Assembly (NCBI RefSeq): GCF_018873765.1
Contig: NC_057918.1
Coordinates: forward strand, 65,722,871 to 65,786,870
DNA: 64,000 bases
Reading direction: 5' to 3'
From: Telopea speciosissima
Lineage: Eukaryota > Streptophyta > Magnoliopsida > Proteales > Proteaceae
In this document: one piece after another, positions 35,645-39,649 of the stretch
How the letters are laid out: every line of letters starts with the position of its first letter
How positions within the stretch are numbered: the stretch's first letter is position 1
Position numbers and translations under genes: made by a program
Notes under the pieces: generated by a model
Database searches by the model: none
The model's input: only the letters and a program-made list of their open reading frames with translations
Told to the model about the DNA's origin: nothing

Positions 35645-38310
35645 TTTTATGAATTAGTAATAGATTGGGACTGGGTTGCTTTGTAATTGGGTTATTATAA
35701 ATAAGAGTATGAAGCTGAGCAAAAGAGGACAGAGATTGAAGAGAAAACAGTTATGGTTGAAGCTGTGATACGCGGCAACGGTGAGAGACTATGGATGAGA
35801 GCCTGGCTGAGAGAGCTGATCCTATCCCCCCTTCTATATCCCCTTCTTCTTCTTATTATTATTATCCTTTTATGTTTCTTCTTTCATATGCAAACAATTT
35901 AAACAACAATAAAGTGGATTCAACAAAGCACCCAGAAAGGGTATGTTAAGTGTATGTTCCTCTAATGTATCTCCTCGGTCTATTAAGTGTATGTTCCTTG
36001 GTTACTCTTGCACTCAAAAAGGGTATAAATGTTTTGATCCAGTTTCTAATACACAATTTACCAGTGCTGATGTCACTTTTTTTGAAAATACTCCTTATTT
36101 TTCTCGTTCTTCTATACTGCCCACAGTGCATAATGAAGATCTTTTTAGGTCCTCCATTACCTGTGCCCATACCCATTCCCTCACCACCAGCGGTTCAGGT
36201 CTATAACCATTGCCGACTTCGACCACCGGTCTTACCATCCACCACCACTACCATACCGGCTCCCACTGACCCAACCACTACACCTGGTCCATCACACTCT
36301 ACTTCCCATATGCCGGATCTGCCATCTACTACAGCGGACACTGCTCCTCCTCACACATAATCTGATTCTGATGTTGAGGGCTCCATCGACTTACCAATTG
36401 TTGTTCGTAAAGGTACTCGCACTTGTACTCACAAATCCCGCCAATCTTTGATTGTTTATCCTATTGAGCAGTATGTTTCCATTTCTCATCTTCCATCCCA
36501 CTATCACCCGCTTGCTTCTAATTTCTCTACTAACTTTGTGCCTAAGACTCACCCTGAGGCGTTTTCTCACCTTGGTTGGAAGGCTGCCGTTACCAAAGTG
36601 GATGCTTTATTATCTCAAAATACTTGGACTCTGGTTTCCTTGCTCACTGGGAAGGACGGTGGATTTATACTATCAAATACAATCCAGATGGTTTGTCGAG
36701 CGGCTCAAGCCCCGCTTTGTTGCTAAAGGCTATACTCAAACGTATGTGTCGATTACTTTGAGACTTTCTCACCCGTTGCGTGCCTGAATTCAGTTCGTAT
36801 TCTTATTTCTCTGGCTGTTAATTTTGACTGGCCCTTATATAAGATGGATATCAAAAATGCTTTTCTCTATGGGGATCTTCAAGAGGAGGTTTATATGGAG
36901 CAACCTCCAGGGTATGCTGCTCAGGAGGAGAATTCTACTAAAGTTTGCAAGCTTCGTAAGGAAATTTATGGGTTGAAAGTTGAAACAATCCCCACAGGCA
37001 TGGTTTGATAAGTTCAGCTCCATTGTCACTAAGGTTGGGTTCTCACAGTGTCGTTATTTTGATCGTTCCATTTTTGTTCGTCGTTAAGGCTAAAAAATGG
37101 TGGTGATGGTGGTCTATGTGGATGATATTATTATATTTGATAATGATGCTTCTGGTATTGCTTAAGTTAAATCATATCTTCATCAGCATTTTCAGATGAA
37201 ATACTTGGGTGTTCTCAAGTATCTCCTTGGTATTGAAGTGTTGCGAAGCAAGAAAGGTGTTAGCTTATCTCAAAGGAAATATGTTCTTGACCTTTTAACT
37301 GACACCGGAATGCTTGCTTCCAAACCTGCAGGTACTCCCATGGATCCTCATCAAAAGCTTGGGTCCGTTGAGAGTAAGGATTTTTCTGATATTCATCGGT
37401 ATAAAAGATTAGTTGGGAAACTCATTTATCTTATTGTCACTTGCCTAGATATATCCTTTGCCGTTGGAGTTATTAGTCAGTTCATGCAATATCCAAAGAA
37501 ATTTCACTGGGATGCTGCCTGTCGTGTGTTGCGATATCTAAAAGGTGCTCCTGGTAAGGGTCTTATTTATCGGCCTAACCGACATGCTAATCTGGTTTGG
37601 TTTTTTGATGCTGATTGGGCTGGTGCTGATGATGATAGCCGTTCCACTACTGGTTATTGTACATTTGTGGGTGGTAATCTGGTCACCTGAAAAACAAGAA
37701 ACAAACTATTATTACTCAATCAAGTGTTGAGGCTGAATATCGGGCAATGGCTCATACTACAGCTGAGTTGATGTGGTTAAAAGCATTGTTCCAAGAGTTG
37801 GGATTTCCTATTGCTCAACCTATGAAGATGTTTTGTGATAATCAAGCCGCTATTTATATTGCAAGTTATCCAGTGTTTCATGAGAGGACTAAGCACATTA
37901 AGGTTGATTGTCACTTTGTTCGGGATGCAGTTACGAAGAAGTTAATTTCTACTCCCTTGGTCTCTACTACCAATCAACTTGGTGATATGGTTACTAAGCC
38001 GTTGTTTGGACCTGCCTTTCGGAGGAGTTGTTCCAAGTTGGGTCTAGGTGACTTATACGCTCCAGCTTAAGGGGGAGTGTTGAAGTATATCGAGCACATA
38101 GAGAATTCTGATCGAGATTCCCTCCTCCTATGTGTCTCTTCTATTTGTGGAGTTTAGTTAGGATTGTCTAGTCCTAGTTTCTGTCTATGTTAGTTCCTAT
38201 TGTAACTAGGAATAATTTATATTTTAGTTTCTATTTTTCATATTGTAACTAGGATTCCTAATTTAATTAGGAATCCCCTCTTTTGGCTGTAATCTAAACT
38301 ATATAAATAA

Positions 38311-39544
38311 GGGAAATTTACGTTTACCACCCCTGGGATTTCAAACGATTACATCTACCACCCCTGGAATTTCATCTATTTCATTAACTTCCCCTATATT
38401 TTGAAAGATTCTTACAAATGTACCTATACCGTTAGATGAGAAGAGTTAAATGATGATGTAATCACCCAAATATTAACTAAATGCCCATAATACCCTTAAT
38501 GAAGGTGCTTTTACACATTTACCCCCATTTGTTTGTAGCCCTAACCTGCTGGTTAATTTCTCTATCCTCTCTCTCCTTCCTCTTGCTGCCGGAGTCCCCT
38601 ACTATTGCCAGAGTAGCCCTCGGAGATCCCTTCCGCTGCTGCTCCCTCTTACGCTTCTCCCCTCCCATCAACTCCCTCACAAGCCCCTCCACTTCCTCTC
38701 TCTTTACATCACTATCGATCTCCATGCCTATCCCCCACTTGGTGCACGCATACAGGCAATTCGTCTGTTGCTCTGCAAAGAAAGGCCAGCTAATCATGGG
38801 CACCCCTTCGCGTATACTCTCCAGAGTAGAATTCCATCCACAATGTGTCAAGAAACCACCAATCGAAGGATGACGAATAACTTGTTTTTGTAGGCACCAA
38901 CCTGAAAGCAAACCTCTATCTTTAATCTCTTCCATGAATTCTCCTGAAATGATCTCTGAACCACCATTCACAATATTGGGTCTAATGACCCATAAGAAGT
39001 GGTATCTGCTATCGGCTAGTCCCCAAGCAAACTCGTTCAGCTGTTGTGGCATTATAATCGCTAGGCTTCTGAAGTTCACATACACAACTGATTTGGGTTT
39101 TCATTCATTTAACCACTCCAAGCATCCCCTGTCTTCTCTCCACAGATTTGATTCAATACAGTTCAATTCAGCTTCTGCCTCTTTTGATTCTGATGAGACT
39201 TGCCTTAAGAGCATAGATAGTGGACCTATGGTGTAAAGCTTGGGAAATTTGGATTTGATGGCATCGATAAACTCAGCTTCTAAATCATCAAACGTTTTAG
39301 AATAAGACCCTGAGTTTTGAGGTCTTCTATCACTGAATTATTATTCTATCTTTCCCTTTTTTTTATTCAATGATGAATCCCTCTACCGTTAGGGTTCAAG
39401 AGTAGAAATAAGGGAAGAAGAAGAAGATGAGTACAAGGGCAATATTGTCATTTTCTTACAAAACTAACAGAAGTAATTTTTGAAATTTCAGGGGTGGTAG
39501 ACGTAATTGTTTGAAACCCCAAGGGTGGTAGACGTAAATTTCCC
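38311..39544. mobile_element. Pack-MULE carrying a UDP-glycosyltransferase fragment
   Basis: Terminal inverted repeats begin GGGAAATTTACGT and end ACGTAAATTTCCC. They continue inward as imperfect repeats with tandem CTACCACCCCTGG-type subunits (38323-38375, and inverted at 39490-39535). The exact 9-bp duplication TATAAATAA (38302-38310 and 39545-39553) identifies Mutator-like transposition. The interior carries host gene sequence instead of transposase (see 38640-39325). The target duplication is the TATA motif of the copia LTR. Confidence 0.9.
38640..39325 (-). pseudogene. UDP-glycosyltransferase fragment captured in a MULE
   Basis: Minus-strand translation runs FDDLEAEFIDAIKSKFPKLY, then [31 protein letters not shown], and the PSPG donor-binding box (about 38765-38899: [27 protein letters not shown]). 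This is the C-terminal half of a plant family-1 UGT, most like the UGT85 group, which transfers sugar from UDP-sugars to small metabolites. The N-terminal acceptor-binding half, including its catalytic His, is absent. There is an in-frame stop after LNE (about 39100), and UGT similarity stops near 38640, followed by unrelated sequence. An open frame of 188 codons (39085-38519) persists over the PSPG region. The fragment is probably non-functional as an enzyme but could give antisense or small RNA against the parent UGT. Confidence 0.9.
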
Positions 39545-39649
39545 TATAAATAAAGACATGGTGAGGGAGACAGTTAAGTTCGATCCCTCTTAACAGCTCT
39601 CCTCTCTTCTTCTCTCAGTTCTGGTTCTCTCTTGTTTAATTCTGTTACA

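Follow-up and report, generated by a model that had tools for sequence, protein, structure and literature searches.

Fragments of cellular genes are carried in plants by certain Mutator-like elements (MULEs), the Pack-MULEs, which are best known from rice; Telopea speciosissima, of the Proteaceae, is an early-diverging eudicot. The rice Pack-MULEs were reportedly described by Jiang and co-workers in 2004. Their counts are quoted in other papers (PMC13317346; PMC8903248), and gene capture by MULEs has been described in rice, Arabidopsis, Lotus, melon and grapevine (PMC2528002) as well as in tomato (PMC3310237; see also PMC8903248 and PMC13317346). The element described here lies in a stretch of 64,000 nucleotides of T. 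speciosissima (RefSeq assembly GCF_018873765.1, contig NC_057918.1, positions 65,722,871 to 65,786,870 of the forward strand), referred to as the window, whose numbering is used unless a locus (L) or contig (C) handle is given. It occupies 38311-39544 (1234 bp) and is very probably a non-autonomous MULE of the Pack-MULE type and a member of a large family, whose arms acquired a UDP-glycosyltransferase (UGT) piece and a repeat piece before the composite transposed into the long terminal repeat (LTR) of a retrotransposon. A Pack-MULE with UGT cargo had been proposed in the first-pass annotation of the window, and the main part of that proposal is supported by the terminal inverted repeats (TIRs), the target-site duplication (TSD), an empty site, the bounded cargo and a parent gene.

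The element is flanked by an exact 9-bp TSD, identical at 9/9 positions. Across 38302-39553 the order is TATAAATAA, the element start GGGAAATTTACGT..., the element end ...ACGTAAATTTCCC, and TATAAATAA again, with the following parts:

38302-38310, unstranded: left TSD, TATAAATAA, an exact match to the right copy
38311-38374, plus strand: left TIR, with units at 38318-38343 and 38349-38374, forming an inverted and a direct repeat; of a genome-wide family
38311-38649, plus strand: left family arm, common to members up to element base 339
38646-39320, minus strand: captured UGT85-type fragment, from an apparent exon 2, 92% identical to the parent gene
38519-39085, minus strand: open frame of 188 codons from a GTG, with about 146 codons of UGT and about 42 codons of transposon arm
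39318-39383, unstranded: second captured segment, matching an interspersed repeat
39381-39544, plus strand: right family arm, 81-90% identical to the arms of L014, L028 and L040, and found in further members too
39481-39544, minus strand: right TIR, with two units at 39479-39506 and 39510-39537
39545-39553, unstranded: right TSD, TATAAATAA, matching the left copy and the empty-site LTR copies

The inverted arms (38310-38374 and 39481-39545) are 65 nt long and 91% complementary; one nucleotide in each belongs to the TSD, so that the TIR measures 64 bp. Each element end holds two CTACCACCCCTGG-type units of 26-28 nt at a spacing of 31 nt. The inverted ends, the duplication and the internally repeated subunits were thus all correctly recognised at first reading. 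The element carries a cellular gene fragment and no transposase, and its cargo lies between the TIRs and does not continue into the flanks, as is characteristic of Pack-MULEs.

Like the rice Pack-MULEs, the element is non-autonomous, has TIRs and a MULE-type TSD, and bears cellular gene fragments in place of a transposase. Unlike the Pack-MULEs of rice and maize, which have been reported to favour GC-rich sequence (PMC3310237), it has a cargo of 43% GC in a window of 40%. Tandem-TIR MULEs have been described in tomato (PMC3310237) and Arabidopsis, and the present family shares with those of tomato, including the Pack-MULE PM-ZIBP, a eudicot host, tandem TIRs at both ends of some members, the amplification of gene-carrying members and repeated motifs in the TIR (PMC3310237). 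It differs from PM-ZIBP, for which one cargo family in 13 tandem-TIR copies has been reported (PMC3310237), in having several cargos and, at four of 37 loci (L027, L035, L037, L042), a tandem pair of outer TIRs at either end, spaced by 142-208 bp. A further likeness is to the transduplicating MULEs, hATs and CACTAs of grapevine, also a eudicot, which captured genic, non-genic and intronic sequence (PMC2528002); the cargo is a different one, and no UGT cargo is named in the available part of that source. The kind of event is therefore already known. The family itself appears to be undescribed, a statement that rests only on null searches, its ends being uncompared with published TIR libraries: no Pack-MULE with glycosyltransferase cargo was found by title in the open-access literature, UGT transduplication gave no match there, and the papers listed by an open-access literature search made no mention of a Pack-MULE in Proteaceae, Telopea, Macadamia or Nelumbo.

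The origin of the cargo has been traced within the genome. On the minus strand, as first annotated, the open frame matches the Pfam family UDPGT over its residues 2-146 with 73.7 bits (cut-off 19.5), and the other frames of at least 60 aa (two) match no transposase in Pfam, which bears out the claim that UGT sequence is present instead of a transposase. Genome-wide searches were made with the whole element (best 40 of 697 candidates scored) and with the cargo alone (best 40 of 51). In the former, one other place matched the element interior over its length, G000:C7:2635707-2636394, with 92% identity over query positions 345-1019, equivalent to 38646-39320; in the latter, the next match by score after this parent reached 71% over 492 bp, with pieces of 58-114 bp at 73-88%. 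The parent is a single UGT85-type gene on another chromosome than the element. The match stops inside the element at both ends rather than running beyond the inverted repeats, and alignment with 80-90 bp of flank gave no evident similarity outside the UGT segment.

At the parent locus (L009), minus-strand frames at 7275-6763 and 5106-4084 would represent two UGT exons separated by an intron. The larger matches UDPGT with 91.1 bits and the smaller matches no Pfam family. The best chain in the PDB for the larger frame is 2pq6_A (E 2.1e-117), followed by 7zer_A, a cyanohydrin beta-glucosyltransferase; we take these to be UGT85H2 and UGT85B1, respectively. With its best similarity to UGT85 enzymes and a plant UGT domain, the parent can be classed by sequence as UGT85-type. 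The captured piece falls wholly inside the larger frame, and intron retention therefore cannot be read from it.

The site of insertion is a copia-type 3' LTR, which with its insert spans 38078-39649 and can be divided as follows:

37196-38070, plus strand: decayed 3' part of a copia-type polyprotein, in short frames, with no Pfam family on 37747-38070
38078-38310, plus strand: left part of the interrupted LTR, beginning TGTTG... after a polypurine run, with LTR copies elsewhere
39545-39649, plus strand: right part of the interrupted LTR, down to its end at ...TGTTACA, where the alignments of the uninterrupted copies L059, L060 and L062 stop

The copia-type identity of the host had been suggested beforehand, together with insertion at its TATA-like motif; the motif is indeed the target, and a copia-type host is probable: SH3_retrovirus was matched above the cut-off on 35943-36206 (53.9 bits), and RVT_2 below it on 37196-37690 (22.5 bits, cut-off 31.6). 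The longest open frame of the retrotransposon body between 32.5 and 38.1 kb is 164 aa, and no second LTR of the host was found within the window. A genome search with the host LTR gave 42 matches among the best 40 of 116 candidates, from which five copies were read (L058-L062). All five align through the site without an insert, a single TATAAATAA being present in L058-L061 and the motif having diverged in L062, so that the empty-site check proposed earlier came out in favour of an insertion. The accompanying suggestion that the insertion silenced the LTR was set aside: the TATA motif was duplicated by the insertion, the TSD puts TATAAATAA back beside the original downstream LTR sequence, and the body, without long frames, is already broken, so that silencing does not follow. 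Upstream of the LTR TATA motif, at 38252-38276, a perfect 12-bp inverted repeat with a 1-nt loop (GGATTCCTAATT/AATTAGGAATCC) was noticed, and similar palindromes are present in the LTR copies L058, L060 and L061.

The choice of target agrees with that of the family. In 23 elements, this one included, 199 of the 207 duplicated bases are A or T, against a mean of 66% in the 200-bp flanks, and the TSDs are diverse, as in AAAAAAAAA, TTTAAATTA and AACTAGAAA. The TATA target at this locus fits a family-wide preference for A/T-rich sites, of which it would be one case. It could also be argued that insertion is aimed specifically at the TATA box of LTRs or promoters, given the TATA-like motif used here and the TSD pair TATAAATAA/TATAAATTA of L028; the variety of the 23 tallied TSDs, A/T-rich as they are, makes such targeting highly improbable, and it was set aside in favour of the broader preference.

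Besides the UGT piece, a second acquired segment, absent from the first-pass annotation, has been recognised at 39318-39383. Its 66 bp match repeats at C6:36468529 (87%), C6:34730867 (86%) and C9:48050653 (83%). All three junctions in the interior show short overlaps: the left arm, reaching to 38649, and the UGT piece, beginning at 38646, share CTCT (4 bp); the UGT piece, to 39320, and the repeat, from 39318, share TGA (3 bp); and the repeat, to 39383, and the right arm, from 39381, share CTC (3 bp). The chance of three overlaps of this length or more is 0.016 x 0.051 x 0.051, or about 4e-5, a figure computed after the fact and assuming equal bases. Microhomology at capture junctions has been described for animal Pack-TIRs (PMC8277862), and the element resembles those that arose by gap filling or FoSTeST in its short junction microhomology and in filler DNA from elsewhere; it departs from their same-chromosome bias (PMC8277862), its donor being on another chromosome. 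The events probably ran as follows. Both arms of the family would already have been present in an ancestor that gained a UGT85-type piece of about 675 bp, from the parent or a now-lost sister, together with 66 bp of an interspersed repeat. A break inside the element was probably repaired by template switching, with 3-4 bp of shared sequence as the guide. The resulting composite would then have transposed into an A/T-only 9-mer of the copia-type 3' LTR, duplicating the 9-mer.

The ends of this element are widespread in the genome. The outer 26-mer gave 117 + 128 matches with up to three mismatches and the inner unit 112 + 130, against 0 + 0 for the reversed-pattern control in both cases. Forty-one other loci were read, namely the 37 best matches of the whole-element search and L063-L066, and 24 of them have a 9-bp TSD no more than 3 bases from the predicted ends (17 exact, seven with one mismatch). 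The arms are common to 21 other TSD-bearing members, the left one over as much as about 205-339 bp and the right one over as much as 80-165 bp; in L010, L012, L013, L014, L020 and L022 the left-arm match, at 83-91% identity, stops at element base 339. When the interiors of 22 members were compared, eight (this element, L012, L014, L019, L023, L025, L028 and L038) had no interior piece of at least 60 bp in common with another. The pairs L033/L041 and L037/L042 are alike throughout. L033 (1257-2722) and L041 (1192-2647), which are 88.8% alike, were considered as transposed copies and rejected as such, since their flanks are homologous at about 90%, which points to a larger regional duplication.

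A search for the same ends with other cargo had been recommended, and several different cargos were found. Pfam was run on 22 frames picked by eye from 16 other elements, a hand-picked set from which no rate can be taken. Seven of these frames, in five elements, exceeded the cut-off: HSP20 in L033, GRAS in L038 and L063, Ndh2_N and DUF4283 in L063, F-box_5 in L012 and Neprosin_AP in L028. The frames tried from nine of the 16 elements (L010, L013, L017, L023, L025, L026, L027, L044 and L046) gave nothing recognised. L063 is a 4.2-kb member (L063:174-4401; G000:C8:5062773-5067000) with an exact 9-bp duplication; besides its GRAS and DUF4283 cargo, it has a frame of 168 aa that matches Ndh2_N with 133 bits, is probably plastid ndhB, and would be either a captured or a later-inserted piece. 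In L038, pieces matching C5, C3 and C4 stand in a row (88, 85 and 95%), a GH35 piece among its cargo falling below the Pfam cut-off. The cargo of L019 matches C3:1515766-1516980 without interruption over 1181 bp (89%); another place, on C8, matches at 80%, and a weak HLH match falls below the Pfam cut-off. The unbroken match fits capture at the DNA level; the source is presumably an ICE1-type gene, in which case the cargo would include intron sequence.

A second UGT, different from the one described above, has also been taken up by the family. The cargo of L014 matches no Pfam family, but in the PDB it resembles UGTs of plants, with a best E of 5.1e-11. L016 and L021 hold the same piece at 88-91% identity; it also occurs at C7:4480141 and C9:53376999, which are candidate donors. 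The 800-bp flanks of the three members that carry it (L014:2044-3191, L016:1272-2889 and L021:922-2602) are unrelated, which indicates that this second composite moved as a unit, after capture. Its presence at three places with unrelated flanks bears on a competing account of the element in the window, according to which the element had already landed in the LTR when it gained the UGT piece, by transposition-independent gap filling, and the composite never moved as a unit. This account is regarded as possible, though clearly the less probable. It agrees with the short overlaps at three of three junctions, with the finding of no second copy of the composite among the best 40 of 51 cargo matches genome-wide, and with the ascription of single-copy animal Pack-TIRs mostly to gap filling (PMC8277862); the mobility of the other UGT-carrying member together with its cargo speaks against it, as does the location of the parent on a different chromosome, given the 59.8% same-chromosome bias of that route (PMC8277862). 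Transposition of the composite after capture is preferred. A wider proposal, which we consider unlikely, would treat the family as a gene-shuffling system in which constant arms and unlinked gene, repeat and plastid-type pieces are repeatedly assembled by template switching, a UGT having been taken at least twice, and in which certain composites, having spread, could in turn act on UGT genes by way of small RNAs. As likely donors, junctions and empty sites are readable in one assembly, the family could serve for tests of how elements come by their gene fragments.

Several results weigh against the reading of the element as a Pack-MULE composite that transposed after capture. No TSD was obtained at 17 of the 41 other loci. 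Some interior piece is held in common with another member in 14 of the 22 compared, so that the captures are not all independent. The junctions of L038 are without microhomology, being blunt on the left and showing 5-bp and 12-bp gaps between the pieces, which means that the acquisition route is not uniform. The TIR of 64-65 bp, with its two tandem units, is shorter than that typical of MULEs, for which TIRs of 100-500 bp and TSDs of 9-11 bp have been given (PMC3310237); because no transposase flanked by such ends turned up among the matches listed, assignment to Mutator rests on the 9-bp TSDs and the form of the TIR. Finally, the difference between the cargo and parent branches in their changes by codon position is not significant (Fisher p 0.17), and the pairwise ratio of nonsynonymous to synonymous divergence (dN/dS) is 0.29, a figure that includes the constrained parent branch.

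The short TIR with tandem units and the missing transposase would also suit a member of another TIR superfamily, or a foldback-like element. Such an origin is judged quite improbable: the 9-bp TSDs, here and at the 24 other loci, lie within the MULE range, tandem-TIR forms such as L027 and L042 have been described for MULEs (PMC3310237), and Mutator transposase domains are plentiful in the genome, with 827 candidates for PF10551, of which 150 were scored. An autonomous partner was sought in several ways. Among the TIR places listed (100 of 245 outer and 100 of 242 inner), none lay within 10 kb of a listed match to PF10551 (150) or PF03108 (150), as compared by eye. The arm at L032:2569-2903 (C9:254568), which has no right end within L032, lies about 9 kb from a PF03108 match at G000:C9:245365-245553; this may be an autonomous element or a chance pairing, about 0.9 such pairs being expected by chance. 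No transposase family was matched by four frames of L063, five of the seven frames of L066, or, at the L065 locus, where eight frames are listed, three of the four that lie inside the element (all but 635-853).

The last two of the points raised against a transposed Pack-MULE composite concern the state of the cargo. Over 229 codons of the parent, dS is 0.141 and dN 0.040, six gapped codons and a stop having been left out. Read in the parent frame, the cargo contains one in-frame TGA, one 1-bp gap causing a frameshift and four 3-bp gaps; two of the latter occur in none of the seven paralogues used as outgroups (68.6-71.8% identity in the matched part) and look like gains in the parent. When changes were polarised with these outgroups, the cargo showed 7/5/9 at codon positions 1/2/3 and the parent 2/2/10, with five ambiguous. 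The parent gene is constrained, 10 of its 14 changes falling at third positions (p 0.004); for the cargo the figure is 9 of 21, which does not depart significantly from neutrality (p 0.24). The 188-codon frame announced in the first-pass annotation is indeed open across the UDPGT match, but it starts with a GTG and runs into the transposon arm; its first in-frame ATG is residue 12, which leaves 177 codons, and the last 42 or so lie in the arm. It is most simply a remnant without clear sign of selection.

It has nonetheless to be considered that the UGT fragment might be under selection or have a function, either encoding a chimeric peptide or giving rise to small RNAs that act on the parent UGT. 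The open frame, the dN/dS value and the length of three bases in four of the five gaps relative to the parent would suit this. The stop and frameshift in the parent frame, changes by codon position as expected without constraint, the apparent origin of two gaps in the parent, and the restriction of the cargo to a portion of a UGT's second half all argue the other way; a functional UGT peptide is not supported, and a functional role in either form appears improbable. The cargo looks like an ordinary decaying gene fragment. A separate observation, made by eye in two members, is that the UGT fragment (38519-38645, minus strand) and the F-box fragment of L012 (L012:2269-2535) both continue in frame into one left-arm tail, NQQVRAxNKW, which L010 and L013 read in other frames; this common tail indicates that different fragments can receive a similar C-terminus from the arm.

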